A stretch of DNA of 11,585 nt from assembly GCA_030671985.1 (NCBI GenBank), contig DAOVHI010000035.1, positions 1-11,585 of the forward strand, given 5' to 3'. Every line of letters begins with the position of its first letter. The stretch's first letter is position 1. The notes under the pieces are model-generated. The model was not told the origin of the DNA. It did not search any database and saw nothing but the letters and a program-made list of their open reading frames with translations. Below, in pieces: positions 1 to 11,585 of this stretch. The stretch comes from JAHJDO01 sp030671985 [NCBI: bacterium]. GTDB taxonomy: Bacteria; JAHJDO01. A program made the translations under genes and the position numbers.

Positions 1-1943
1 ATGTTATTCAAAAGCTTCCCATCGCCAACCGAAAAACTGAATTTATTAGTGCTGTCTTTATTCAGTAAAAATCCGCTTGATGAAGAGGATACTAATTTTC
101 CCACAATTCCTTGATCTGCGCCGTCTGCCTCGCTTTTCACCCATGCTTCAACCGTAATATTTCCTGAGCTCACCAAACTTGTTGAATGAGAAATTCCAAC
201 ATAATCCCCTGTCCCGTCAAAGTGAATACACTTTCCAAATACCCCATACTGTGACCATGCCGCATCATTATAAATTGTTCCGTCGTTGTCATATATTGAA
301 GAATCATGGGCAGTCGTTGATACCGGATCATCATCTAGATTATCAAAATGCCATAGACCCACCGGATTTCCGCCAAGGATGCTTGAGGTTGTCTGTGTCT
401 TGAAGCGTACCTGCGTTCCCCGCGAATCCTGCCATATCTCATATGCCGTTTTTGCGCGGCTGTAGACTGCGACTTCGTCAATTAAGCCGTTGAATTCTCG
501 TCCAATTTTAAAACTATTAGAATTTGAAGCTATCACTGCGTCAGTATCATGGGTTACCTCCTCGACGCCATTTACATAAAGCTTCATCTCGTCCGTGCCG
601 CCTGCGTCTTTATCGTAAGTTAAAGAGATATGATTCCATCCCGGAGAAACTGCGCTGGAAATTACCTGCCCGTTTATGTGGACGGCGGCGGTTGTTAAGG
701 TTGCTCCAATCCCATAACTTCCTTCTTTTGAGATATTTACCTCCGGATGGCTGGGAACGCCATAACTTACTTCAACCTTGACATAATGAGTTCTAAGCCA
801 TCTGGAAGGTCCCGGGTTACATGATGTTCCTAAAACATAGAGAAAGCCGGAGCCATCTACATACTTAGTTAGATCTGTAGTTAAGGTTCCTTGATAAGTG
901 TGTTTTATATTACCATTAAGAAAGCTATCAATTTGTACCCACTGGGTGCCATCAAAATCCCAGATATATAAAAAAGACTCATAAGAAGTATGCTCATCGT
1001 GAGCAACCCATGTAGCCTGAATTTGGGTGATGTTATCCTCAGCTTCAGTTATGGTAAATTCGAAACGATGGTATTTGATATCATGGCTATCACCTGCTTC
1101 ATCATAGCTGGCATCATCAAACGCAATATTAGCCAATGCGGTGTCGTTTAACGCAGTTTCAGTTCCCGGAACCAAGTTTGCAATATTGGTTAAATCACTG
1201 CATCGCCACCCCCATTTATCCGTGTCTGCGCCGTCGGAACTAAATTCATAGACGGTAGAAGATGAAGCTGTAGCTGATAAGGAATTCACCCACGCCTCAA
1301 TCGTAATTGCATCGGTGATATTATTTAGACTCGTTGAACTGGGAACATTAACATAACCACCGAGTCCGTCAAAGTATAATGCGCTCTGAAACACTGCTGA
1401 ATCATCCGACGCTTGTTCCCACCAACTGCCGTGGACAACGCCTGTGTTGCAATTTGCGGATTCATCATATACAGCGAAATCATCGGCGCTTGTTCCGCCT
1501 GCTAAATGCTCTCCCTCGTCAAAATGCCAGAGACCCACAAGATCCGTTACCTCGTCCTTTCTCAGCCGTGAATCTCCTCTATCGTATGGATCAGTTAAAG
1601 TACTCCGATTATTCCAGTCTATTGTTTTCCACACAACAAGCGAACCCGCATCATAAGTGGAGGAAAGCAGCACACCTGTGTCGTAATAGTCACTCTCTTT
1701 AACAATTGATATCTGTCCTGGTACAGCATTATCAATATTGACATCTGTATCGTAGCGCTCAGTGCCGTTAACCCAGATACACTGCGAATCCCCGCCAACC
1801 CAGTCGGTCTGGGTCCAGTCGGCATGGGCAGGAACGGTGAAGGCAAAGAACAGACAGATAAGGCATCTTTGAACCCACGATTTAAATCGTGGGTTCAGTG
1901 GGTTCATTTGGACATTTGAATTTTGAATTTTGTCATTTATCAT
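1..1943 (-). CDS. Large exported LamG-domain protein (3' end beyond window)
   Basis: An open frame runs from the ATG at 1943 through the left edge (647 full codons, no stop). The start has a strong GGAGG at 1953-1957, nine bases upstream. Residues 1-41 form a signal peptide with an unusually long N-region, a hydrophobic core near 27-37 and a likely AHA/D cut at 41/42. After a beta-rich leader domain (about 42-135, with a DTGVLLSSTYDAGSLVVW motif) comes LamG domain 1: GLWHFDEG at 137-144, LYFDG at 189-193, IEAWV at 215-219, LYVNG at 455-459, IDEVAVYSRA from 488. LamG domain 2 starts with GLWHF near 529 and has HFDG and VEAWV, then is cut by the edge. A 155-residue segment (about 244-399) interrupts domain 1. 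LamG domains commonly bind glycans or proteins; no catalytic residues were recognised. The gene follows gspK and has its own sigma-54 promoter, so it may be T2SS cargo or an adhesin working with the pseudopilus (inference). Confidence 0.88.
   Translation of the reverse strand, partial: MINDKIQNSNVQMNPLNPRFKSWVQRCLICLFFAFTVPAHADWTQTDWVGGDSQCIWVNGTERYDTDVNIDNAVPGQISIVKESDYYDTGVLLSSTYDAGSLVVWKTIDWNNRSTLTDPYDRGDSRLRKDEVTDLVGLWHFDEGEHLAGGTSADDFAVYDESANCNTGVVHGSWWEQASDDSAVFQSALYFDGLGGYVNVPSSTSLNNITDAITIEAWVNSLSATASSSTVYEFSSDGADTDKWGWRCSDLTNIANLVPGTETALNDTALANIAFDDASYDEAGDSHDIKYHRFEFTITEAEDNITQIQATWVAHDEHTSYESFLYIWDFDGTQWVQIDSFLNGNIKHTYQGTLTTDLTKYVDGSGFLYVLGTSCNPGPSRWLRTHYVKVEVSYGVPSHPEVNISKEGSYGIGATLTTAAVHINGQVISSAVSPGWNHISLTYDKDAGGTDEMKLYVNGVEEVTHDTDAVIASNSNSFKIGREFNGLIDEVAVYSRAKTAYEIWQDSRGTQVRFKTQTTSSILGGNPVGLWHFDNLDDDPVSTTAHDSSIYDNDGTIYNDAAWSQYGVFGKCIHFDGTGDYVGISHSTSLVSSGNITVEAWVKSEADGADQGIVGKLVSSSSSGFLLNKDSTNKFSFSVGDGKLLNN
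1871..1906. repeat. TTTAAA-centred palindrome with extra half-copy, inside LamG gene
   Basis: Positions 1871-1896 are a perfect 26-bp palindrome (arms GAACCCACGA, centre TTTAAA). The adjoining 1898-1906 repeats the arm end, so GTGGGTTCA occurs twice in tandem (1889-1897 and 1898-1906). It is read in frame as NPLNPRFKSWVQ in the N-region of the signal peptide. The arrangement (two direct half-copies plus one inverted) matches that at 8688-8730 in the kinase gene. Confidence 0.85.
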
Positions 1944-1975
1944 TTTTCCTTTCCTCCGATCCACCTATATAAACA

Positions 1976-1992
1976 AGCAACTTTCATGCCAA
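1976..1992 (-). promoter_or_regulatory. Sigma-54 (-24/-12) promoter for the LamG gene
   Basis: On the minus strand the bases read TTGGCATGAAAGTTGCT: TGGCA, then the required spacing, then TTGCT. The GG (1990-1989) and GC (1978-1977) are 12 bases apart, as in the sigma-54 consensus TGGCAC-N5-TTGCW. Transcription would begin near 1965, just before the GGAGG of the gene starting at 1943. The same motif occurs at 7714-7730, and the locus encodes a sigma-54 activator. No enhancer site was recognised. Confidence 0.75.
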
Positions 1993-1995
1993 ACA

Positions 1996-2040
1996 ACTCA
2001 TCCCCCACCCCCTTCTCTTGACAAAGAAGGGGTGCTTTCC
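1996..2040 (-). repeat. Modular hairpin repeat, copy A (gspK/LamG junction)
   Basis: It begins right after the gspK stop. It contains the 24-base hairpin module also found at 5009-5032 and 5783-5806 (here 2009-2032; about 10-bp stem, GTCA loop on the coding strand), followed by the shared tail GGGGGATGAGTTG. The tail ATG at 2000 opens only a five-codon frame (MSCLA, then stop). The hairpin lacks a following U-run, so it is not a convincing intrinsic terminator, though it could protect the mRNA 3' end. Confidence 0.8.
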
Positions 2041-5001
2041 TTATCTTTCATAAATAACCGTAATTTTCTTCTCTCCGAGTACTTCATCATCAACATCAAA
2101 GATCCTGTTGCCATTCTTATCCAAAATTGACTGACCTGTACAGATTATCTTGAACACATTTGATTTTGTTGTAATGAGATTGGAGATGGGTTGAAAATTT
2201 GTAGTGCCTATATTATCTACTCCTCCACTAGCTGCTGAAGGAAGAATTTCACCAATAGATTTAAATGGTCTATTTGCAAGAAAATCGGGCGCATTTGTAG
2301 CACCTACCCCTTGCAGTCCCTGAAGCACAGGCGTGTCCGCTGTATTTATATTTATTCTTCCATAAGTTTTTGAAGCCGGCGTGAGCAGGATATAATCAAA
2401 AAACACCGAGTCCGCGCTTGAAGCGTCTGCTAGAATAGCAACGCTCAAAGTGGTATCCGATATTGCAACCTGTCCATATTTAGCACCGTAATCTGAGCTT
2501 GGAGTAATAAGCGCGGAGTCATTGCCAACCCTTACCCTCATTGTTCCGCCTTCTCTGCCGTAAACATACATGATATATGTATCCGCTTCAAATCTGTCTC
2601 TTGTTGTGTACCATGTCCATGTATCCTCCTGTGCTGAAGCGGAATCAGATGCCCTAAACCAATATAATTCACCAATAATGCTCTTCCCGAACTTACGCTC
2701 TATTTCACCTGATAAATCACTTATCTTTTCTGGAGAGCCCCAATTTGCGTTTGTATGATCCGCAAACTCCGCGTCAAGCCGTCTTCCAGAAACAGTGATA
2801 CTATCCGCAATATTCCTTATCCTATCCTCAATATTACCAATAGTTTCCCATTCGGTAGTTTTACTGTAGGATACATCCGCTATTTCGCCTATATTTGCGA
2901 ATGGAAAATTTTTCACATTAACACTGCCTCCTGAAAAATTGCCGACGTTTACTGCGGCAGGACTTCCTCTGTCTGATAAAGAATCTGAAGCATTTTGGTG
3001 TATCAACCAGCTGTCAAATATGCCTGAATCATTTAAGACATCCACTCCTCCAGCTACTCCCATAAAAGCAGGGTCATTTCTTTCCATAGAATAAAACTCA
3101 TATTCCTGCACTATCTGACTATCCCATAGAACCTGATCTACAATATGACCCGCTGGATTAGCTATTCCTCCGCTTATTGTTGATTCAATGGGTCCGTCAT
3201 AGAGCCGCAGAGGGCTGTCAATGAGAACCGTATCGGAAAGAATATCGTCCAAAGCGGATAAATTAAGCAGTTGATAAACATTACCTGTAGGGCCACCAAA
3301 CCATGTGTTTTCAACAGAAATTCCGTCGCTGTTAGAATCCCCCTTATCTATAGCAAGAACGGCATAAGCGCCTGCTCCTATACTTACATTTGGTATTGTT
3401 CCAACCTGACCGTTTGGAAATTCAAGTCTCCAGCCGCCTATGTTAATATCGTTCTCAGAGATATTCACAAGCTCAACATATTCGCAGTCAGGTGATTGAG
3501 AAAGGTCAACGCGGTACCATGAAACAGGACTTTCTGTTGGCAGTTTTTTGGAGATAATATTGATCTTAAATGTGCCTCCTCCAGATATTACTACCGTATC
3601 TGCCGTAGAGGTATCGGATAACCATACATTGAAATGCGTGTCCGACCAGATTCCACTATCAGGATAGATCAGATAATCCACTTTTCCTGAGCCATAAACA
3701 TTCACCTTATATGTTCCATCCGGAATTCCCGACCAGCTCCAGATACCGCTGTCGCCGAAATCATCACTTGTCCAAGTATTTCCTGATGGCGCCCATCCAA
3801 CATTAACTTCCGATACAGCAGCAACGCCATCCTTCCTAAACACAGGCCTTACCATAACCTCATTTATTCTTATTCCCTCAACCCCGTAACGGGTAATTAT
3901 GTTGCCGTCTTTATCTTCAACATCAATCCGCGTTGAGCCGCTATCTCGGTCCCTGTAGTCAATTATATTTACTGCCATCTGCGCAAGCTCTTCCGTTGTA
4001 TAAGCATTTGGACCTTCCCAGTATTCGCACGCGTCCCTCAGAATTGAATACAACTCCATTGCAGAACTTACAGCGTTAATATTCATTCGCATCAGCCCTG
4101 AATCTGTGAGATTTTTATCAGACGAGTAGGTTGTGATGTATGAATCAAACCTAGCATATTCATCGCCATCTATCCCTGCAAGAGAAACAACTTCGGCAGG
4201 AGTCAGATAAGATGTGTCTGCTCTGAGATCGTCTGTAGGGTTAATGTATGGACTGGCAATATAAAACTCTGCAGGATCATCTACTCCTTCATTAAGTTCA
4301 TCAGTTGAATTATCTCCATCATTATCTATTCCGTCATTATTCAGAACAACGCTGTCATGATTATCATCATCGGTGGTAGGGTCTCCTTCACAAACCCCCG
4401 GCGAATCATCATTCCCATAACGCGCATCTAAAATATCGCCTGCGTCTGATGTGGTGAATATTTTATCAAGTCTTATTTCTCGCGTTGTCCAGCCGTCTTC
4501 GCCGTAAGAAGTCCCTGCACTATTTATATTTATCTTGCCCGACTCATCAATGACCAGAACAGCGTATCTTCCAATCAGACGTCCTTGTGAATCCATTAGA
4601 TTTATCCATCGGGAATCTGCTCCGTCAACTGCAGCCGGCGCATTTGTTGAAATCACATTGGCATCATTGCTTATACACGAATCTGCCGTTAAGCTTTCAG
4701 TAGAATCAATTCCAAAGAGTGAGGAATCGTAACCCCAATCATCCTCGTACCAGTCATATCCTTCATACATGCAGTAATCACCTGATTCATTATTAGACGG
4801 ATCGCCGTCCTTCTTTAGAACACCGATTGCATGCTGAATACCTGCTTTCGCAACATAGTCTGCCTTTACTCCAGTCATATAATTGGCTGCCGCGCGCTGA
4901 TCCATTATCATGCTGTATGAAAAAGCCGCAGCAATAGAGGCAAGAACAGCCATGATCGAGACAACAAGGATGAGGGCTATTCCGGATTGATTACAACTCA
5001 T
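2041..5001 (-). CDS. gspK: Giant GspK-like minor pseudopilin with lamin-tail-like domain
   Basis: GspK caps the T2SS pseudopilus tip with GspI and GspJ. From the ATG at 5001 the protein is 986 aa, about three times the usual length. The N-terminus MSCNQSG/IALILVV is a class III prepilin signal (cut after Gly7, no Glu at +5, as is typical of GspK), followed by a hydrophobic helix to about residue 30. GspK core signs: GKININS (155-161), MNINAVSSAMELYSILRDA (306-324) and GRININTADTPVLQGLQGVG (881-900). Inserted are an acidic loop (197-242, with DNDGD), a lamin-tail-like domain (strand GIRINEVMVRP at 376-386; CEYVELVN...GGW at 506-525, continuing to about 640) and two beta-sandwich-like modules (about 405-485 and 794-875). 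A second possible start at 5094 overlaps the gspJ stop as ATGA and has a GGAG four bases upstream; it would add 31 residues encoded mostly by the repeat. I prefer 5001 because it gives a normal short leader. Export or adhesion roles of the extra domains are inferred. Confidence 0.85.
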   Translation of the reverse strand: MSCNQSGIALILVVSIMAVLASIAAAFSYSMIMDQRAAANYMTGVKADYVAKAGIQHAIGVLKKDGDPSNNESGDYCMYEGYDWYEDDWGYDSSLFGIDSTESLTADSCISNDANVISTNAPAAVDGADSRWINLMDSQGRLIGRYAVLVIDESGKININSAGTSYGEDGWTTREIRLDKIFTTSDAGDILDARYGNDDSPGVCEGDPTTDDDNHDSVVLNNDGIDNDGDNSTDELNEGVDDPAEFYIASPYINPTDDLRADTSYLTPAEVVSLAGIDGDEYARFDSYITTYSSDKNLTDSGLMRMNINAVSSAMELYSILRDACEYWEGPNAYTTEELAQMAVNIIDYRDRDSGSTRIDVEDKDGNIITRYGVEGIRINEVMVRPVFRKDGVAAVSEVNVGWAPSGNTWTSDDFGDSGIWSWSGIPDGTYKVNVYGSGKVDYLIYPDSGIWSDTHFNVWLSDTSTADTVVISGGGTFKINIISKKLPTESPVSWYRVDLSQSPDCEYVELVNISENDINIGGWRLEFPNGQVGTIPNVSIGAGAYAVLAIDKGDSNSDGISVENTWFGGPTGNVYQLLNLSALDDILSDTVLIDSPLRLYDGPIESTISGGIANPAGHIVDQVLWDSQIVQEYEFYSMERNDPAFMGVAGGVDVLNDSGIFDSWLIHQNASDSLSDRGSPAAVNVGNFSGGSVNVKNFPFANIGEIADVSYSKTTEWETIGNIEDRIRNIADSITVSGRRLDAEFADHTNANWGSPEKISDLSGEIERKFGKSIIGELYWFRASDSASAQEDTWTWYTTRDRFEADTYIMYVYGREGGTMRVRVGNDSALITPSSDYGAKYGQVAISDTTLSVAILADASSADSVFFDYILLTPASKTYGRININTADTPVLQGLQGVGATNAPDFLANRPFKSIGEILPSAASGGVDNIGTTNFQPISNLITTKSNVFKIICTGQSILDKNGNRIFDVDDEVLGEKKITVIYER

Positions 5002-5078
5002 CCACTTGCCCCTTCTCTTGACAAAGAAGGGGAACACTCCCTCTCTTTTCAAGAGAGGGTTAGGGTGAGTTAATTCAT
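4993..5078 (-). repeat. Modular hairpin repeat, copy B (gspJ/gspK junction)
   Basis: It has both modules: a CTCACCCTAACCCTCTC-type hairpin (5039-5059, 9-bp perfect stem, 3-base loop) and the 24-base hairpin (5009-5032), then the tail GGATGAGTTG. The tail ATG (5001-4999) is the preferred gspK start, with AAGGGG from the hairpin arm seven bases upstream acting as ribosome binding site. Confidence 0.85.
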
Positions 5079-5090
5079 AATTAATAATTT

Positions 5091-5774
5091 TCATTCCGCT
5101 CCCGGCATAAATACAGTAGTTTCAAAAGTCTGAGTATCTTCTCTTGCTTCTTCATCACGTGTTCGAAGAACTATCTTTATCTTTTTTGGTAAACCGTCAG
5201 CAGTTCCGTCAGCAAGATACAAATCTGCCAAAGAATCCCAAGTTCCGGGAGAAGAATCTGCCTCAGCAGCATCGCCATAATAATAATAAAACTGAAGATC
5301 TACGACTGCAATGCCAAGTGAACTGCTTGTGCCTGTGTCATAAACAAAATCAATTTTATTACTAGTGCCAACTGCATAATGACGCATGATTTCTGTATCT
5401 CCTCTTATCCAGTATCCTAACTCACACATATCAGACGCGGTGGTATTTGAGGGATCTATTAAATTAGATGTTGAGTATATAGGAGCTACAAAGAATAACT
5501 CATCTCTCGTACTACCTGTTTTTATCCAAGCCGCTGTTTCATCATTTAGTCCAAGCATGTATATTTTTCTTGCTTCATTTACCATTGCGCAGGAGATCTC
5601 TCTTGACATCATACCAAGAATCGCTCTTGCATTCTGATACCGCTCCATTCTTACATTGCCCTTTGTCCATGAATCGGTACCGCCTTTGAATATAGAGTAA
5701 ATACCTGTTATCAGTAAAGCCAGAACCAGTGTTGATATCATAATTTCGATGAGAGTGAAAGCACGGCAACTCAT
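5091..5774 (-). CDS. gspJ: GspJ-type minor pseudopilin
   Basis: GspJ is a minor pseudopilin of the T2SS tip complex (GspH-I-J-K) in the inner membrane and periplasm. From the ATG at 5774 the product is 227 aa and opens MSCRA/FTLIEIM: a five-residue leader, Ala instead of Gly at -1, Phe at +1, Glu10 at +5, then a hydrophobic helix (about 6-27). The C-terminal part has the GspJ-like pattern AVVDLQFYYYYG, then TWDS, then LPKKIKIVLRTRD. An in-frame ATG at 5891 overlaps the end of gspI and would add 39 repeat-encoded residues. It has no close ribosome binding site, whereas 5774 has AAGGGGG seven bases upstream, so 5774 is preferred. The stop (5093-5091) overlaps a possible ATG at 5094 as ATGA, an arrangement typical of coupled translation into gspK. 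Confidence 0.87.
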   Translation of the reverse strand: MSCRAFTLIEIMISTLVLALLITGIYSIFKGGTDSWTKGNVRMERYQNARAILGMMSREISCAMVNEARKIYMLGLNDETAAWIKTGSTRDELFFVAPIYSTSNLIDPSNTTASDMCELGYWIRGDTEIMRHYAVGTSNKIDFVYDTGTSSSLGIAVVDLQFYYYYGDAAEADSSPGTWDSLADLYLADGTADGLPKKIKIVLRTRDEEAREDTQTFETTVFMPGAE

Positions 5775-5880
5775 CCCCCTACCCCCTTCTCTTGACAAAG
5801 AAGGGGTAAATATTCCCTCTCCTTTTCCCTCTCTGTCAAGAGAGGGTAGGGTGAGTTTGAGAGAATTAGAGTGAGTTAAT
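5770..5880 (-). repeat. Modular hairpin repeat, copy C (gspI/gspJ junction)
   Basis: This is the longest copy. It contains a CCCTCTCT/AGAGAGGG hairpin (5827-5846, 8-bp stem, four-base loop), the 24-base hairpin (5783-5806) and the tail GGGGGATGAGTTG. A further degenerate CTCACTCTAATTCTCTC piece precedes the first hairpin on the coding strand. The tail supplies the gspJ start at 5774. Confidence 0.85.
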
Positions 5881-6300
5881 TTATTTAACATAACTCGTTA
5901 CGAACTCCTCAATTTTAGTATCTGCTCCACAATTGGAATAAATAGCCAAAGTAACGTGATATAAATTATCTATATTATTGTGATTTTGCGAAATTATGAA
6001 ACTCCACGAAAAGTTCTCATACGGAGAAGAAAAAAAGTGATCTGAAGCAGTTAATGCCGAATACGTAACTAAATCGCTAACATCATTAGCGTTCATATAC
6101 TCATACTCGGTCTCATCATATTTTTTTTGCTCTATATCGCTCATCTTCTGCTGACCGAGAAATGCCATTATCGTGTGATCTCCTGCACGCTTGCTTGCCT
6201 TGAGCCCTACAGGGAACATCTGAATAAGCCCAAGAAGAGCGATACCCATAATAGCCATCGCAATAACAAGTTCAAGAAGGCTGAATGCTCTATTTCTCAT
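5881..6300 (-). CDS. gspI: GspI-type minor pseudopilin (PilV/GspI family)
   Basis: The product is 139 aa and opens MRNRA/FSLLELVIAMAIMGIALLGL: a five-residue leader with Ala at -1, Phe at +1, Glu10 at +5 and a hydrophobic helix. A basic segment (LKASKRAGD) and the AFLGQQKMSDIEQKKY stretch fit the GspI/PilV pattern. GspI is expected to start the tip complex with GspJ and GspK. The start overlaps the gspH stop by four bases (ATGA, 6300-6297), implying coupled translation. The C-terminal half (about 60-139) is weakly conserved and rests mainly on position between gspH and gspJ. PilV-like naming is an alternative. Confidence 0.82.
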   Translation of the reverse strand: MRNRAFSLLELVIAMAIMGIALLGLIQMFPVGLKASKRAGDHTIMAFLGQQKMSDIEQKKYDETEYEYMNANDVSDLVTYSALTASDHFFSSPYENFSWSFIISQNHNNIDNLYHVTLAIYSNCGADTKIEEFVTSYVK

Positions 6301-6827
6301 CGGTATGTCCTCACACGACCTGTAGTATTTAATATTGTTATATATGAAGTATCATTTCTATTAATATCACTAATTTCAATTGTTCTGGATGCCGATGCTC
6401 CTCCTGTCGGATTAAACCAAATATATTTCACATTAACACCTGCCGAATCTGAATCATTGGGAAATGGAATAATATCCCACTCATCCAAAGTCCCATTGTC
6501 TGTCATAATTATTGTCTTAGGCAAAGTTTTCCAGTTGGTTACAGAACCTCCCTCATCATAGCCATCTGGGTCCCAATAAATCTTCACTGCGTATCCACTG
6601 TTATTTATATCCATATTAAAAAGAACTGCGCAATTTTTTCGCTTTGTTATTGCATGACTGCGCGCAGTGTGGAGGGCGGAAACAACTGTTTGCGCTCCGC
6701 TTTTAATCCTGGAATTTCTCGTAAACTGGACAAAAGAAGGGGCTGCCGCAACAAACATAATGCCCATGATCGCAAGCACTATCATTAATTCCACTGCTGT
6801 GAAACCCAACATTCTTTTATTTGCCAT
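6297..6827 (-). CDS. gspH: GspH/FimT-type minor pseudopilin
   Basis: From the ATG at 6827 the product is 176 aa. It opens MANKRMLG/FTAVELM: an eight-residue leader, Gly at -1, Phe at +1, Glu13 at +5, then helix VLAIMGIMFVAAAPSFVQF. The segment SGAQTVVSALHTARSHAITKRKNCAVLF is the typical GspH/FimT stretch where the helix meets the first strands, and WFNPTGGAS followed by IEISDINR fits the C-terminal beta part. A GTG at 6854 in the same frame would overlap gspG by 25 bases. The ATG at 6827 lies two bases after the gspG stop and gives a normal leader, so I chose it; its ribosome binding site (GGAG about 11 bases upstream, inside gspG) is rather distant. Confidence 0.85.
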   Translation of the reverse strand: MANKRMLGFTAVELMIVLAIMGIMFVAAAPSFVQFTRNSRIKSGAQTVVSALHTARSHAITKRKNCAVLFNMDINNSGYAVKIYWDPDGYDEGGSVTNWKTLPKTIIMTDNGTLDEWDIIPFPNDSDSAGVNVKYIWFNPTGGASASRTIEISDINRNDTSYITILNTTGRVRTYR

Positions 6828-6829
6828 TC

Positions 6830-7321
6830 TTAGTTTGTCTCCGTATCCCAACACGCTATGTCATCATTAGGAGTACCAAGTGGAGCCTTATTTTTTCCCC
6901 AAGACCAGAGATCATAACTGCGATCTTCAAGCGGATTATCGTAATCGGCTGGGGTACCTCCCGGGGCAATATATCTGTATTTCATACCATAAGGGTCATT
7001 CGGAATATCCTTGGAAAGATACAATCCACGCCCGTTGGTTCCAACGGCTTGTAACATCCTTTGCAGATCATCTATGTTGTCATCGGCGTCACTAGATAAA
7101 TCTTCTCCACCCGCATTGCCATCACCTGGATACACTCCATAATCCATCTGATACATTGCAAGGGCGCTTTCAAGACTGTTGATATCCGCTCTCGCTCGTA
7201 TCTTCTTAGCCGAATCAATATGCTTCATAAAGTTCGGCATTACAATACCAGCAAGAAGCACAATGATTCCTATTACAACTAAAAGCTCAATGAGTGTGAA
7301 TCCTCTTTTAAATTTTCCCAT
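6830..7321 (-). CDS. gspG: GspG-type major pseudopilin
   Basis: GspG is the main subunit of the T2SS pseudopilus. The product is 163 aa and opens MGKFKRG/FTLIELLVVIGIIVLLAGIVMPNF: cut after Gly7, Phe at +1, Glu12 at +5. The GspG signature is clear: IRARADINSLESALAMYQMDYGVYP (split here as residues 41-65), NDPYGMKYRYIAPG (108-121), SYDLWSWGKN (135-144) and a DDIACWD tail (153-159). The acidic C-terminal loop matches the region that binds calcium in known GspG structures. The ribosome binding site GGAGG lies just upstream of the ATG, ten bases after the previous gene, so the two pseudopilins are probably cotranscribed. An acidic insert (about 68-85) lengthens it beyond the usual 140-150 residues. 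Confidence 0.93.
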   Translation of the reverse strand: MGKFKRGFTLIELLVVIGIIVLLAGIVMPNFMKHIDSAKKIRARADINSLESALAMYQMDYGVYPGDGNAGGEDLSSDADDNIDDLQRMLQAVGTNGRGLYLSKDIPNDPYGMKYRYIAPGGTPADYDNPLEDRSYDLWSWGKNKAPLGTPNDDIACWDTETN

Positions 7322-7331
7322 AATCCCTCCT

Positions 7332-7679
7332 TTAAAAATTAATTGTCTCCGATACGCCCTTACCGCTTCCGTCGGTTATTGTGTAACTGCTGGTCGTTGT
7401 TGTATAAGTATAAGTCCCTTTCCATGGATCAGCAGGAACAGGTTTGCTTAGATATTTTTCGGACACAAGAACGTCAAGACTTGCAGGAAGAGCCCCTTCG
7501 TTACCGGCTCTAAACAAATCAACGCTTTTTCTTAAGAGCATTACGTCTGCCGTTGCCTTTCCAACCTTAGATTTCTCAAGCCCTTTAAAATAATTAGGAA
7601 CTATTATTGAAGCAAGCAGTGTAATAATTGCAATCACAACAAGAAGCTCAACAAGTGTGAAACCTTTTCTAAACTTCAT
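7332..7679 (-). CDS. Small GspG-like pseudopilin, first gene after the sigma-54 promoter
   Basis: From the ATG at 7679 the product is 115 aa and opens MKFRKG/FTLVELLVVIAIITLLASIIVPNY: six-residue leader, Gly at -1, Phe at +1, Glu11 at +5. The rest fits a short GspG-like head: LRKSVDLF in the helix, GALPASLDVLVSEKYLSKPVPADPWKGTYTY, and an SYTITDGSGKG ending. A GTG at 7685 is in frame but overlaps the ribosome binding site (GGGAGG, 7690-7685); the ATG has GGAGG five bases upstream and is preferred. It lacks the long acidic C-terminal loop of the neighbouring GspG, so it may be a second fibre subunit or a variant pseudopilin. Being first in the operon behind its own promoter suggests high expression. 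Confidence 0.88.
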   Translation of the reverse strand: MKFRKGFTLVELLVVIAIITLLASIIVPNYFKGLEKSKVGKATADVMLLRKSVDLFRAGNEGALPASLDVLVSEKYLSKPVPADPWKGTYTYTTTTSSYTITDGSGKGVSETINF

Positions 7680-7713
7680 TTCCACCTCCCTTTTTCACTC
7701 TATATTACTATAA

Positions 7714-7730
7714 AGCAACATTTATGCCAA
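7714..7730 (-). promoter_or_regulatory. Sigma-54 (-24/-12) promoter of the pseudopilin operon
   Basis: On the minus strand the bases read TTGGCATAAATGTTGCT. GG (7728-7727) and GC (7716-7715) are exactly 12 bases apart. Transcription should begin near 7703, leaving a leader of about 24 bases that contains the GGGAGG of the first pseudopilin gene. Thirteen of the 17 positions around the core are shared in kind with the site at 1976-1992. The site lies in the gap right after the sensor kinase gene, so the pseudopilins can be expressed separately from the gspF-regulator unit. Confidence 0.8.
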
Positions 7731-7743
7731 CCCTAGAATACAA

Positions 7744-7788
7744 ACTCATCCCCTCTCTTCTCAAGAGAGGGTCAGGGTGAGTTTGGCT
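7744..7788 (-). repeat. Modular hairpin repeat, copy D (kinase 3' end)
   Basis: It holds only the first module: AACTCACCCTGACCCTCTC on the coding strand, with a perfect 9-bp stem hairpin (7751-7771), followed directly by the shared tail GGGGATGAGTTTG. The kinase stop codon (7774-7772) is the TGA in CACCCTGACC. The 24-base module is absent. The sigma-54 promoter follows within 20 bases. Confidence 0.8.
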
Positions 7789-8950
7789 TCTTTTCTCTCA
7801 ATGTGTGCGATTTTTCTCTCACTGGCAGTCTAATAGTAAAACTTGTTCCTTTCCCCTCTTCAGATTGAACAGATATATCGCCATTAAGATTTTTTATTAA
7901 CGACTTACAGATGTAAAGACCAAGTCCCGTTCCCTTTCCTGACTCTTTTGTTGAAAAAAACGGCGTAAATATTTTCTTTAAATTTTCAGGCGCAATACTG
8001 CATCCTGTATCAGTGAATTTTATTTCAATAAAACTTTCCGTATGATCATCTCCCTCTTCTTTCACATCTGTTGTTATAGTAAGTAGAGGCGAACGGCCAT
8101 TTGCCATTACTCCTTTGTTTCCTCCCATAGCTTGATAAGCGTTGGCAATTATATTCAAAAATACCTGTTTCAACTGATCCGGATTGGCTTTTATTTTTGG
8201 CAGCCTTACAGCATATTTTTTCCGCAGTGGCGAATGACCGTCTGCCCCTACGGATTCAAGAGACATCAGCGAATCGTCAAGCAACTCATTAACATCAATC
8301 ATGCTCATATCATTATTCCTAGATACTGAAATTCTGGAAAAGTTAAGTAAATCAGTAACCATTTTATTAATGCGGTCTGTTTCCTGAAAAAGGATTCCAA
8401 TCTGTTCAGATACTTCATGCCCCGGATTTTTAAAGGCATTCTTGAGAAAAAACGCTGCATTATTAATAATTGCCAGAGGATTCTTGATTTCATGCGCAAG
8501 TTTTGCTGATATTTCCCCCATAGAGGAGAGCTTGTTTCGCTCCATAAGTTCAAACTCCGTATCAAGCAATTCTATATTGAGCTTCTTTAGTTCCAAAGTT
8601 CTCTCTTCTACTTTTTTTTCCATATCCTGAGACCATTTCTTAAGTTGTTCCCTTGAACTAACAAGTGGCTGTAAGCTCTTCTCTTTTTGAACAGTGGGTT
8701 TTTGAACAGTGGGTTTAAACCCACTGTTCAAAGCAGCAAATATTGGTTGAATGATGATTTTTAAGAGAAAAATAAGGGTAATAAATCCCAGAGAAAAAAA
8801 GATAATTGCGATAAAGAAATCCCTGTGCTGAAGAGAAGTATCTCTCCATACAGTCACAGCAACGTATATAAGGAAAACGGCTAAAACTGTTAATATGAAT
8901 AGATATACAAGCCGCAAAAACAGAGAAAGAACTTTATCTTTTAATTCCAT
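7772..8950 (-). CDS. Membrane-bound sensor histidine kinase, partner of the NtrC-type regulator
   Basis: The product is 392 aa. Two membrane segments (about 10-33 and 44-70) bracket only about ten residues, so there is almost no periplasmic sensor domain. A coiled segment (about 96-140, rich in KK/EE) leads to the HisKA H-box LAHEIKNPLA with phospho-acceptor His153. The ATPase has the N-box FLNIIANAYQAM (264-275), a G1-like box DTGCSI (314-319, Ser where Gly is usual), the F-box FTPFFSTKESGKG and G2 box GTGLGL (340-345). It should phosphorylate the regulator encoded just upstream; the two genes overlap by 17 bases. Three stretches are repeat-derived: LNSGFKPTVQ (74-83), VGADGHSPL (234-242) and VMANGRSPL (281-289); the last five residues (KPNSP) also come from a repeat. 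Role resembles PilS, but with two rather than six membrane segments. The signal sensed is unknown. Confidence 0.93.
   Translation of the reverse strand: MELKDKVLSLFLRLVYLFILTVLAVFLIYVAVTVWRDTSLQHRDFFIAIIFFSLGFITLIFLLKIIIQPIFAALNSGFKPTVQKPTVQKEKSLQPLVSSREQLKKWSQDMEKKVEERTLELKKLNIELLDTEFELMERNKLSSMGEISAKLAHEIKNPLAIINNAAFFLKNAFKNPGHEVSEQIGILFQETDRINKMVTDLLNFSRISVSRNNDMSMIDVNELLDDSLMSLESVGADGHSPLRKKYAVRLPKIKANPDQLKQVFLNIIANAYQAMGGNKGVMANGRSPLLTITTDVKEEGDDHTESFIEIKFTDTGCSIAPENLKKIFTPFFSTKESGKGTGLGLYICKSLIKNLNGDISVQSEEGKGTSFTIRLPVREKSHTLREKKPNSP
8083..8110. repeat. 28-bp palindromic unit in kinase gene, copy 1
   Basis: This imperfect palindrome (10 of 14 symmetric positions match) begins GTAATGGC and ends CTCTAC on the coding strand. 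It matches the unit at 8224-8251 at 20 of 28 positions. It is read in frame as VMANGRSPL, in the ATPase domain between the N-box and G1 box, where length varies among kinases. Confidence 0.75.
8224..8251. repeat. 28-bp palindromic unit in kinase gene, copy 2
   Basis: On the coding strand it begins GTAGGGGC and ends CACTGC, 20 of 28 bases equal to copy 1 (8083-8110). It is read in the same frame and orientation, giving VGADGHSPL. It lies between the HisKA helices and the N-box. Confidence 0.75.
8688..8730. repeat. TTTAAA-centred palindrome with extra half-copy, inside kinase gene
   Basis: A perfect 28-bp palindrome (8703-8730; arms TGAACAGTGGG, centre TTTAAA) is preceded by a 15-base direct copy of its arm (8688-8702). 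It is read in frame as LNSGFKPTVQKPTVQ, just after the second membrane segment and before the coiled linker. The half-copy produces the doubled peptide KPTVQ. Confidence 0.88.
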
Positions 8951-10277
8951 ATATTTTCATCTTCTCATAGAAATGCCGCCTACTTATACCGGCTTTCTTT
9001 GAAGCAAGTGATATATTTCCATTTGCCTTTTTTAATGTATTGATTAAAAAATCGCTTTCAAAGACGGTTCGCGCTTCGTGAAAATTCTCTCTTGCAATTG
9101 TTTTGATGCGGGCAGGCGCAAAGCCTGCTCCTACAGAAATATATTCCGGCAAATCCTTAGGAAGAATACATGCTCCTTCCTGCAGTGTTACCGCGCGTTC
9201 AATTACGTTTTCCAGCTCTCTAACGTTACCTGGCCAATCGAAATTTATGAGCAAATTCATTGCTTCGGAGGAAATCCGTTTAGACGCTAAAAAGTGCTTT
9301 ACTAAAAGAGCTATATCATCTTTCCTTTCTCTGAGGGGAGGCAGATCAATAGCAATTACATTTATTCTATAATACAAGTCCTCTCTAAACAGTCCCTCTT
9401 TTATACGGTCTTCTAAATCCCTATTAGTTGCGCTTATGATTCTTACGTCAACCTTAATTTGCCGTACTCCCCCAACTCCTCTAAATTCTCCATCTTGAAG
9501 AACGCGCAATAATTTCATCTGCGTGATTAAAGAGAGATCTCCTATTTCGTCAAGAAAAATAGTCCCTTTGTCAGCAGATTCAAATATCCCTTTTCTACTG
9601 CTTATGGCACCAGTAAATGCGCCTTTTTCATGCCCAAACAATTCGCTTTCCAGTAGATTCTCAGGCAAAGCTCCGCAATTTATAGCTAGAAACTTGTTTT
9701 TTTTACGCGGACTGTTGTAGTGAATTGCATTAGCTATTAGTTCCTTACCTGTTCCACTCTCTCCCCTTATTAGTATAGAGGCATTGGCTTTAGAAACCTT
9801 TTGCACCAATTGATAGACATCCTGCATTTTTTTGTTGTTTCCTATCAGCCCTTTAAGACGAAATTTTTCTTTTAACTGGTCATGCAAATATAAATTCTCG
9901 TTTACCAGTTTCTCGTGTTCTATCGCTCTACGCGCAGATAAAAGAATCTCCTCAGGCATATATGGTTTCCTGATATAATCATAGGCGCCAAGCTTTACTG
10001 CATCAATTGCCGAATCCACCGTAGCATGTCCGGTAACGATTATGACAGGTATTTCCTTGTTCTTCTTTCTCACAGTGGACAACATAGTCATTCCATCAAC
10101 GCGAGGCATCTTTATGTCAGTAATTATTAGATTGAATTGCTCGGTGTCTAAAATTTCTATGGCTTCTTTTCCATCTCCGCATACTTTGACATCATATCCC
10201 TGCTGATGAAGGATACCGGAAAGCGCTTTCTGCATATTTAGTTCATCGTCTACAACTAGGATTTTTGGGTTCATCAT
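8934..10277 (-). CDS. NtrC/PilR-type sigma-54-dependent response regulator
   Basis: The product is 447 aa and activates sigma-54 RNA polymerase when phosphorylated. Receiver domain (about 4-118): acidic pair Asp10/Asp11, phospho-acceptor Asp54 in TDIKMP, Thr82 and Lys104 in RKP. AAA+ domain (about 143-370): Walker A GESGTGKE (172-179), sigma-54 contact loop GAFTGA (219-224), Walker B GTIFLDE (238-244), arginine-rich RINVIAIDLPPLRER. A Fis-type helix-turn-helix lies at the C-terminus (about 405-447: ISLASKKAGISRRHFYEKM). All key residues are intact. The linker before the DNA-binding part contains VGAGFAPAR (382-390), encoded by a dispersed-type repeat. The start is ATG 10277 or the next ATG at 10274. 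The gene follows gspF and overlaps the kinase gene by 17 bases. Likely targets are the two sigma-54 promoters at 7714-7730 and 1976-1992 (inference). Confidence 0.95.
   Translation of the reverse strand: MMNPKILVVDDELNMQKALSGILHQQGYDVKVCGDGKEAIEILDTEQFNLIITDIKMPRVDGMTMLSTVRKKNKEIPVIIVTGHATVDSAIDAVKLGAYDYIRKPYMPEEILLSARRAIEHEKLVNENLYLHDQLKEKFRLKGLIGNNKKMQDVYQLVQKVSKANASILIRGESGTGKELIANAIHYNSPRKKNKFLAINCGALPENLLESELFGHEKGAFTGAISSRKGIFESADKGTIFLDEIGDLSLITQMKLLRVLQDGEFRGVGGVRQIKVDVRIISATNRDLEDRIKEGLFREDLYYRINVIAIDLPPLRERKDDIALLVKHFLASKRISSEAMNLLINFDWPGNVRELENVIERAVTLQEGACILPKDLPEYISVGAGFAPARIKTIARENFHEARTVFESDFLINTLKKANGNISLASKKAGISRRHFYEKMKIYGIKR
9106..9141. repeat. GC-rich hairpin repeat inside regulator linker
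   Basis: On the coding strand CTGTAGGAGCAGGCTTTGCG and the following CCTGCCCGC form a short hairpin (GCAGGC at 9112-9117 with GCCTGC at 9123-9128). It is read as VGAGFAPAR between the ATPase and helix-turn-helix. The word resembles a dispersed bacterial repeat of the form TGTAGGAGCAGGC...; only one copy is in the window, so its repeat status rests on recall, not on sequence shown here. Confidence 0.5.
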
Positions 10278-10320: not shown

Positions 10321-11585
10321 TTATGAAATCGCTGTAGCCAGCTTGATCAAAGGCATGAATAACGCAATAACTATAAAACCTACAATAATTCCCATAAATA
10401 TAATCATAACCGGCTCTATTATACTTGTCAAAGCTTCTACTGCAGCATCTACTTCTTGATCGTATGTATCACCCACCTTGAGCAGCATCTTATCTAATGC
10501 TCCTGTTTCTTCACCAACATCCACCATATTGATAACCAGCGGAGGGAATATTCCGCTTTCTTGAAGCGGCACGGCTATTGATTCTCCTTCTCTGATACTG
10601 TCACGAACGGATACCATTGCCTGAGCTATTACTTCATTTCCTGATGTATCCCTTACAATAGTGAGTGCCTGAAGTATCGGAACTCCGCTTCCGATCAGAG
10701 TTGCAAACGTTCTTGCGAATCTACCGATAGCTGTTTTTCTGGTCAAAGGACCGATAATAGGAAGATACAACTTAAATTTATCCGAATAATACTCCCCTTT
10801 CTGTGTTTTTCTAATAAGCTTGTATATTATAAATATACCAACTAATGCTCCCAAAATAATAAGAATACTTTTCCAGTCTTTGAAAAGGTCAGAAGTTTTC
10901 AATAGAAAAACAGTAGCACCTGGCAGCTCCGTATCGAAATCATCAAACATTTTTTTAAAGGTTGGGATAACCATTATGATCAAAAAGGCAAGTATTCCTA
11001 CGGCTGCAACAGTAACAAGTATAGGATAAACCATAGCGGATTTAATCTTTCTTTTTAGTGCCTCCTCTTTCTCTGAAAACTCAGCTAACCTTTCTAAAAC
11101 CGCCTCTAAAATCCCGCCAACTTCACCGGCCTTTATCATATTGACAAAAAGCTTTGAAAAGCTTTTTGGATGTTTGGCAAGTGCGTCTGAAAATGTGGAG
11201 CCTCCCTCAATATCTGCAGATACCTCTGAGAGAGTGTCTTGCATAATACCGGGTTTGGCCTGGTCTCTCAGGACATTAAGACTTCTCAATAAAGGAAGCC
11301 CCGCATCAAGCAAGGTTGCTAATTGTCTGACAAAAACAGATAAGTGTTTGGGCTTTATTTTATCGCCGATCCCAGGCAGTTTAATCTGAATATTCACACC
11401 TGCGTTACCACCGGATTTTGCTGACTTAGCAGACTTTGAAGTACGGGAAGCGGGAAACTTCTCGTAAACTTTTGTAGGGAAATAACCAATATCCCTTATC
11501 TGGGATATTGCCAAAGTAGAAGTCTCTGCCTCAACAGTCCCATTCATCTCTTTACCGTGATTGTCTATTGCAACATACGTGTAAG
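10321..11585 (-). CDS. gspF: GspF-type inner-membrane platform protein (start beyond window)
   Basis: GspF is the polytopic inner-membrane platform that couples the GspE ATPase to pseudopilus assembly. The frame is open to the right edge: residues YTYVAIDNHGKEMNGTVEA run across an internal ATG at 11547, matching the usual GspF opening, so the true start lies upstream. The visible 420 residues hold an N-terminal segment, a linker rich in Lys/Ser (about 45-62), a first T2SSF domain (about 81-205; FVRQLATLLDAGLPLLRSL) and a second (about 288-408; FARTFATLIGSGVPILQAL). Three membrane segments are predicted near 186-208, 237-256 and 388-412. It ends LATAIS. A PilC-type type IV pilus platform is the alternative; the GspG-H-I-J-K genes downstream favour T2SS. 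The partner gspE would be expected just upstream. Confidence 0.93.
   Translation of the reverse strand, partial: YTYVAIDNHGKEMNGTVEAETSTLAISQIRDIGYFPTKVYEKFPASRTSKSAKSAKSGGNAGVNIQIKLPGIGDKIKPKHLSVFVRQLATLLDAGLPLLRSLNVLRDQAKPGIMQDTLSEVSADIEGGSTFSDALAKHPKSFSKLFVNMIKAGEVGGILEAVLERLAEFSEKEEALKRKIKSAMVYPILVTVAAVGILAFLIIMVIPTFKKMFDDFDTELPGATVFLLKTSDLFKDWKSILIILGALVGIFIIYKLIRKTQKGEYYSDKFKLYLPIIGPLTRKTAIGRFARTFATLIGSGVPILQALTIVRDTSGNEVIAQAMVSVRDSIREGESIAVPLQESGIFPPLVINMVDVGEETGALDKMLLKVGDTYDQEVDAAVEALTSIIEPVMIIFMGIIVGFIVIALFMPLIKLATAIS

Follow-up and report, generated by a model that had tools for sequence, protein, structure and literature searches.

The DNA analysed here, referred to as the window, covers positions 1-11,585 of contig DAOVHI010000035.1. 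Its source genome (G000, in which the window contig is C20) comprises 1,253,468 bases in 152 contigs and is 92% complete. The window holds a row of pilin-like genes next to genes for a response regulator and a histidine kinase, followed by a gene for a LamG exoprotein, and two short sites that are very probably sigma-54 promoters, one before the first pilin-like gene (gspG1) and one before the LamG gene. Four relatives (G001-G004) belong to the same genus and, with G000, make up the five genus genomes compared below. All window genes lie on the - strand, and the features, in the order in which the genes are read, are as follows:

10321..11583, - strand: gspF/pilC inner-membrane platform protein, 5′ end cut by the contig edge (Pfam T2SSF; NCBIfam PilC and GspF both below cut-off)
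8934..10277, - strand: NtrC/PilR-type response regulator, sigma-54 activator, with receiver, AAA+ domain carrying GAFTGA and Fis-type helix-turn-helix (Pfam)
7772..8950, - strand: sensor histidine kinase whose two hydrophobic segments are joined by a very short loop (Pfam HisKA, HATPase_c; alignment, hydropathy)
7751..7783, no strand assigned: repeat element with the kinase stop on one side and the promoter on the other; at this place G002, G003 and G004 carry families other than this one (repeat analysis)
7714..7730, - strand: very probable sigma-54 (-24/-12) promoter serving the gspG1-gspK operon, with transcription predicted from about 7703 (exact match; kept in all five genus genomes; wrong-spacing control)
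7332..7685, - strand: gspG1, resembling a major pilin/pseudopilin and heading the operon, likely ATG 7679 (N_methyl, T2SSG; typeII_sec_gspG 61.0 bits, cut-off 88.85)
6830..7321, - strand: gspG2 (T2SSG; typeII_sec_gspG 84.2 bits, cut-off 88.85)
6297..6854, - strand: gspH-like (Pfam GspH)
5881..6300, - strand: gspI/pilV-like (N_methyl; weak pilV and gspI)
5091..5891, - strand: gspJ-like, with a repeat-derived N-terminal leader (N_methyl; repeats)
2041..5094, - strand: gspK-like, 1017 amino acids, with a Lamin Tail Domain (LTD) inside (Pfam LTD; T2SS_GspK 54.4 bits, cut-off 130)
1993..2048, no strand assigned: repeat element between gspK stop and LamG promoter (repeat analysis)
1976..1992, - strand: very probable sigma-54 (-24/-12) promoter serving the LamG exoprotein gene, with transcription predicted from about 1965 (exact match; kept before close LamG relatives in G002 and G004, in another neighbourhood)
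3..1964, - strand: LamG (Laminin_G_3) exoprotein, signal-peptide-like N-terminus by eye, likely ATG 1943, cut by the contig end (Pfam; N-terminal part and second module common to the G002 and G004 proteins)

A check of the window sequence places TTGGCATAAATGTTGCT at 7730-7714, before gspG1, and TTGGCATGAAAGTTGCT at 1992-1976, before the LamG gene, both on the - strand. They are of a TTGGCAY-N5-TTGCW-like type with a GG-to-GC distance of 12 bases, and TGGCAYNNNNNTTGC matches the window without mismatch at these two positions only. The gene row is tightly packed, and both sites fall in its two larger gaps, 86 bases from the kinase stop to the listed gspG1 start and 76 bases from the gspK stop to the listed LamG start; the remaining gaps measure 43 bases (gspF-regulator) and 10 bases (gspG1-gspG2), and the other neighbours overlap. 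Good ribosome binding sites follow downstream, GGGAGG for ATG 7679 of gspG1 and GGAGGAAAGG for ATG 1943 of LamG, these being the likely start codons, and the listed GTG starts (7685 and 1964) less likely ones. Transcription is predicted to begin at about 7703 and 1965. A first-pass annotation of the bare sequence had described the two sites with their spacing, the sizeable gaps and strong ribosome binding sites, the same predicted starts, and an intact GAFTGA activator with its kinase in the cluster; each of these points stands as written, the regulator having receiver, AAA+ and Fis-type helix-turn-helix domains and the kinase HisKA and HATPase.

The first-pass annotation had also proposed a genome scan with the motif, a check for rpoN and a search for the same promoters in relatives, all of which turned out in favour of the sites. 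The exact pattern TTGGCAYNNNNNTTGCW has four matches in G000, two of them in the window; the others lie on C66, inside a 675-amino-acid frame, and on C108, before glnA. Allowing one mismatch gives 51 matches, the four exact ones included, and the surroundings of a part of these were scanned with an approximate matrix. The reversed pattern has no match in the genome, a weak control because it holds other words, and none of 200 shuffles matches the site pattern, likewise a weak test as the pattern was written from the sites themselves. The rpoN gene was found in all five genus genomes, G000 included.

The gspG1 site is present before gspG1 in each of the five genomes with its GG and GC bases kept. 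In the alignment, 16 of the 17 site columns and the eight bases after them are invariant, as against one of 40 upstream columns. Between the kinase stop and the site lie different repeats in G000/G001, in G002/G003 and in G004, so the site stands out as a conserved island in an otherwise changing stretch. The LamG site is kept, again with its GG and GC bases, in all three genomes that hold a close LamG gene, where 15 of 17 site columns are invariant as against 3 of 40 upstream. Two refuting conditions named in the first-pass annotation, a genome lacking rpoN and GG/GC bases lost from orthologous loci, have not come true.

A control on spacing was made with the paired half-sites in the five genomes. 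At the N5 spacing 37 pairs occur, and at other spacings 54 in total (N2 9, N3 8, N4 8, N6 5, N7 7 and N8 17). Placement was called promoter-like when a pair lay outside frames of at least 100 amino acids and a frame of at least 50 amino acids started within 200 bases downstream. This holds for 15 of the 37 N5 sites and for one of 53 wrongly spaced ones (Fisher P 2.4e-6, with orthologues counted separately), one of the 54 having been dropped as its context is identical to that of another. The 15 placed sites fall into seven target groups: gspG (5), LamG (3), a second pilin (2), gvpA (2), glnA, gdhA and a PilZ protein.

Some observations weigh against reading the sites as sigma-54 promoters. Twenty of the 37 N5 sites fall within frames and two belong to neither class; we take the in-frame sites as chance, and their number exceeds the count at any one other spacing, partly through orthologous frames with the same word. 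Furthermore, TTGGCA could be the -35 box of a sigma-70 promoter, followed after 16 or 17 bases by an AT-rich -10 box, the TTGC being coincidental. The gspG site scores 9 out of 12 in this way at spacer 17, where the -10 place reads TAATAT in four of the five genomes and TATAGT in the remaining one. Of 16 compared sites, five show a -10-like hexamer at spacer 16 or 17 that matches at 5 or all 6 positions; one of these five, with TATAAT, belongs to the second pilin of G003. However, sigma-70 hits are hardly commoner in the window than in shuffles (36 against a mean of 30.1, standard deviation 5.1). At the LamG site of G002 the TTGC is preserved, whereas the -10 position reads TGTGTT. The paired words, moreover, reach their highest count, 37, at the sigma-54 spacing, every other spacing giving 5 to 17, and it is at this spacing that they stand before genes. 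The sigma-70 reading is therefore poorer than the sigma-54 one, though not empty, and we regard it as very improbable. From the sites, their conservation and placement and the presence of rpoN, all of which are observed, we infer promoter activity, and there is little doubt in our view that both sites are working sigma-54 promoters.

For five of the seven target groups (gspG, second pilin, gvpA, glnA and gdhA) a sigma-54 activator gene adjoins the site or lies one gene away. It is found directly before the site at glnA (G000), gdhA (G003) and gvpA (G003), one small frame from the gvpA site in G002, one pilC-like gene (named by eye) from the second-pilin site and one kinase from the gspG site. 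Upstream of the PilZ site 466 bases of contig remain, and LamG is the exception, with no activator adjoining outside G000. The gas vesicle clusters, in which a sigma-54 site precedes gvpA and an NtrC-type regulator gene stands a short way upstream, lie on contigs C140 of G002 (L209) and C24 of G003 (L223). About 3 kb before the gas vesicle regulator of G002, a 256-amino-acid frame has a second, divergent match to a sigma-54 DNA-binding domain (C140:16453-16863, E 1.3e-9).

In the window, the regulator (86-89% identical to its orthologues in the four relatives, the G001 copy being partial) and the kinase would form a local circuit of the PilS/PilR kind in a hybrid cluster that combines type IV pilus and type II secretion features. 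RNA polymerase carrying RpoN would wait at each promoter until a phosphorylated NtrC/PilR-type activator remodels the complex by ATP hydrolysis. The membrane kinase (7772-8950) would phosphorylate the adjacent regulator (8934-10277), which would then switch on RpoN polymerase at the gspG1 promoter and with it the gspG1-G2-H-I-J-K operon. The adjacency of these genes is observed and the pairing of activator and promoter is what we infer from it; that the regulator acts on the gspG promoter seems likely.

Whether the LamG promoter answers to the same regulator is a more even question. Gene order in G000 and the small number of activators there are the reasons for proposing it, and the window regulator would be the most probable single activator of LamG in this genome; production of the exported protein would then coincide with that of the pilus fibre. 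The activator domain has five matches in G000: the C20 and C108 ones are strong, the C140 one is incomplete and lies at the edge of its contig, and the remaining two, with E about 1e-5, are weak and in our view belong to other AAA+ proteins. This leaves three convincing activators: the window regulator on C20, a NifA-like GAF protein beside glnA on C108, and the C140 fragment. The genome being 92% complete, an activator may be missing, a point that tells against common control, as do the two that follow. LamG is not beside the pilin operon in G002 and G004, and no enhancer common to the upstream regions of gspG (5) and LamG (3) rose above shuffles in searches for exact words, dyads and ungapped words, which have low power and suffer from interfering repeats. 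Of 25 shuffles in the ungapped-word search, 8 reached the observed score at width 10, 6 did so at width 14 and 4 at width 18. The shared upstream enhancer motif that the first-pass annotation proposed scanning for did not appear, and the search gives no support to shared control of LamG while being too weak to refute it. A palindromic repeat beside both G000 promoters was considered as an enhancer and set aside, as other repeats stand there in G002, G003 and G004.

These same facts bear on a rival in which the sites are sigma-54 promoters and LamG is served by a different activator (the NifA-like protein next to glnA, say, or the one on C140), so that pilus and exoprotein answer different signals. 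The unlinked LamG genes of G002 and G004, the want of an enhancer motif common to gspG and LamG above shuffles and the two further convincing activators of G000, one a fragment, favour it. On the other hand, the LamG gene of G000 is the next gene after the operon that is most likely under the regulator's control, and the convincing activators seen there number only three. We give this rival somewhat less than an even chance, and an even one to the window regulator acting on the LamG promoter, as judged from sequence. The combined proposal of two sigma-54 promoters, a PilS/PilR-like local circuit and LamG under the same regulator is nevertheless the best explanation overall, and a fairly probable one.

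The LamG gene differs in position between the genomes. Close relatives with the same N-terminal part and second module were found in G002 and G004, preceded by the sites TTGGCATGAAAATTGCT and TTGGCACGAAAGTTGCT, respectively; the start codon in G004 is unsure, as the called frame begins 175 bases further on. Weaker matches in G002, G003 and G004 (the best, in G003, with E 7.4e-7) we take to be other LamG proteins, and G001, which is 62% complete, gave no LamG match. In G000 the gene comes directly after gspK. Its predecessor in G002 is a glycosyltransferase-like gene, from which a short four-helix-type frame separates it, and in G004 a 445-amino-acid gene, a relative of which lies two genes further on in G002 (names by eye); the two LamG genes accordingly share one neighbourhood. 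The position of the LamG site of G002 is occupied by a site in G003 too, with a short four-helix-type frame and then a run of N behind it. The gene after gspK is prfB-like (by eye) and not LamG in G002 and G003, and the G004 contig ends in gspK. The four-helix frames themselves resemble the 23S rRNA IVP family: one precedes the LamG promoter in G002 (L202:6684-7031, by eye) and one stands directly behind the corresponding site in G003 (L226 from 2478, Pfam).

It could be argued that LamG lies behind gspK only through misassembly at a repeat. A repeat of about 56 bases does occupy the gspK-LamG junction, gspK is followed by another gene in G002 and G003, and G000 is the odd one out, LamG (G002, G004) or a LamG-like site (G003) occurring in one other neighbourhood. 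The repeat is, however, shorter than a usual sequencing read, and in G000 the glycosyltransferase-like gene runs directly into an epimerase-like gene with no trace of LamG, which makes misassembly improbable in our view. One change of neighbourhood, in one direction or the other, is supported by the sequences, and the promoter appears to have stayed with the gene although the neighbourhood changed. A bolder reading would make LamG and its own sigma-54 promoter a single unit, able to relocate and kept in the pilus/secretion regulon wherever it lands, with sigma-54 and a locally encoded activator as the lineage's default for surface and buoyancy modules (two pilus operons, exoprotein and gas vesicles) and a kinase with almost no outer loop that reads the state of pilin in the membrane. 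It covers one genus among the genomes searched, one neighbourhood change supports it, and we consider it doubtful.

The nature of the machine was judged largely from the relatives, as the window contig ends in gspF. In G002, G003 and G004 a pilB/gspE gene, pilT and a second pilB/gspE gene directly precede gspF. Family names were tested on the G003 proteins only: PilT exceeds its cut-off (pilT_fam 443.8 bits against 319.1), and both pilB/gspE ATPases stay under that of PilB (663.5 and 644.3 against 675.65). The ATPase furthest from gspF exceeds the GspE cut-off (647.7 against 630.25), which speaks for a secretion-type element, and the other falls just below it (628.6). The GspG and GspK proteins of the window lie under the curated cut-offs for type II secretion equivalogs (values in the list above). 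Genes for a PilM-PilN fusion, PilO and a secretin lie in a separate operon of G002; G000 has a PilM-PilN fusion on C103 and secretin matches on C132 and C14. As one of the two ATPases exceeds the GspE cut-off, the system is probably best called a pilus/secretion hybrid. Because pilB/gspE, pilT and the second pilB/gspE directly precede gspF in relatives, the layout resembles known pilus clusters with PilS/PilR and not a switch in a pure type II secretion cluster. The interpretation of the first-pass annotation hence survives in part: two very probable sigma-54 promoters, an activator and kinase nearby and an exported LamG protein whose gene has a promoter of this class are retained, as is PilS/PilR control of pilA as the parallel, while the novelty it saw in a sigma-54 switch inside a type II secretion cluster gives way to a pilus-like layout.

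Repeats are also found inside this cluster. At the 5′ edges of pilin-like genes they supply the leader before the prepilin cleavage site (window 4993-5071 and 5767-5857; also L052, L053 and L055), and the families at these edges differ between the genus genomes. The C-termini of the kinases vary as well, ending in repeat-like tails, and perfect palindromes lie within coding sequence, one of 32 bases at 8701-8732 (kinase linker) and one of 28 bases at 1870-1897 (N-terminal part of LamG). Repeat turnover, together with a LamG gene that changes place with its own promoter, is among the less usual features of the system.

Control of the cell surface by sigma-54 is well represented elsewhere. The available part of PMC3162934 ties sigma-54 to envelope, motility and secretion gene classes, as a controller of the bacterial exterior; the word pilus is absent from that part. 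The regulome of Desulfovibrio vulgaris, as far as the text of PMC4641369 at hand goes, places pili, exopolysaccharide and nitrogen operons under sigma-54, with pili under a sigma-54 response regulator, and includes 23 sigma-54 operons without a predicted enhancer. A LamG exoprotein is not named as a target in the available portions of PMC3162934 or PMC4641369, nor in the titles or abstract openings retrieved in literature searches; no paper was found that joins three or more of the subjects sigma-54, LamG, type IV pili and candidate phylum. Such a target may nonetheless be in print. Among 105 distant regulator loci (25 plus 80) scanned for pilus genes, six have a gspF match in the flank, and one of these six has a sigma-54-like site before a pilin; 25 of the 105 have only about 1.5 kb of flank, where misses mean little. 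This locus, in Candidatus Omnitrophota (JACQZH010000064, L067), runs pilT-like, pilB-like, kinase, regulator, gspF/pilC, site (12721-12737), pilin, and pilM-like to secretin-like genes, names being by eye except for gspF (tblastn) and the regulator. It shares with the window the kinase, regulator, gspF/pilC, site and pilin, but its regulator is 45% identical, its pilin-like gene is single with no GspG-K series, and its site lies 341 bases before the pilin.

PilS-type kinases have six membrane segments and a PAS domain. The window kinase has two hydrophobic segments, unlike the six of Pseudomonas aeruginosa PilS, and no PAS hit (Pfam), which also sets it apart from Geobacter. Geobacter and Myxococcus have the gene order pilB-pilT-pilC-pilS-pilR-pilA, and PilR of Geobacter sulfurreducens was reportedly the subject of work by Juarez in 2009. 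In contrast to Geobacter, the order here is regulator, kinase, pilins, with six pilin-like genes including a GspK-like one. The likenesses are nonetheless close: as in the PilR-sigma-54-pilA circuit of Geobacter sulfurreducens described in the accessible text of PMC2725144, the activator gene of the window stands just before a sigma-54 promoter of pilin-like genes. In the relatives of G000, pilB and pilT are found nearby. The window likewise has a sigma-54 promoter directly before a major pilin and next to regulator genes, and G002-G004 have the cluster with pilB, pilT and pilC. In Pseudomonas aeruginosa, according to the consulted part of PMC6058289, the PilSR two-component system regulates the major pilin PilA and also swimming; here too there is a two-component system, an NtrC-type regulator beside a histidine kinase. 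The pair may resemble PilSR in its working, its orthology to PilSR being only putative. The PilS/PilR-like sigma-54 circuit would in this way extend to a lineage with no close relatives among the genomes searched, with a small and testable regulon, whose short promoters are recognisable in repeat-ridden genomes because they form conserved islands between changing repeats. If the exoprotein shares this regulon, a protein otherwise hard to assign becomes a candidate substrate or partner of the pilus machine.

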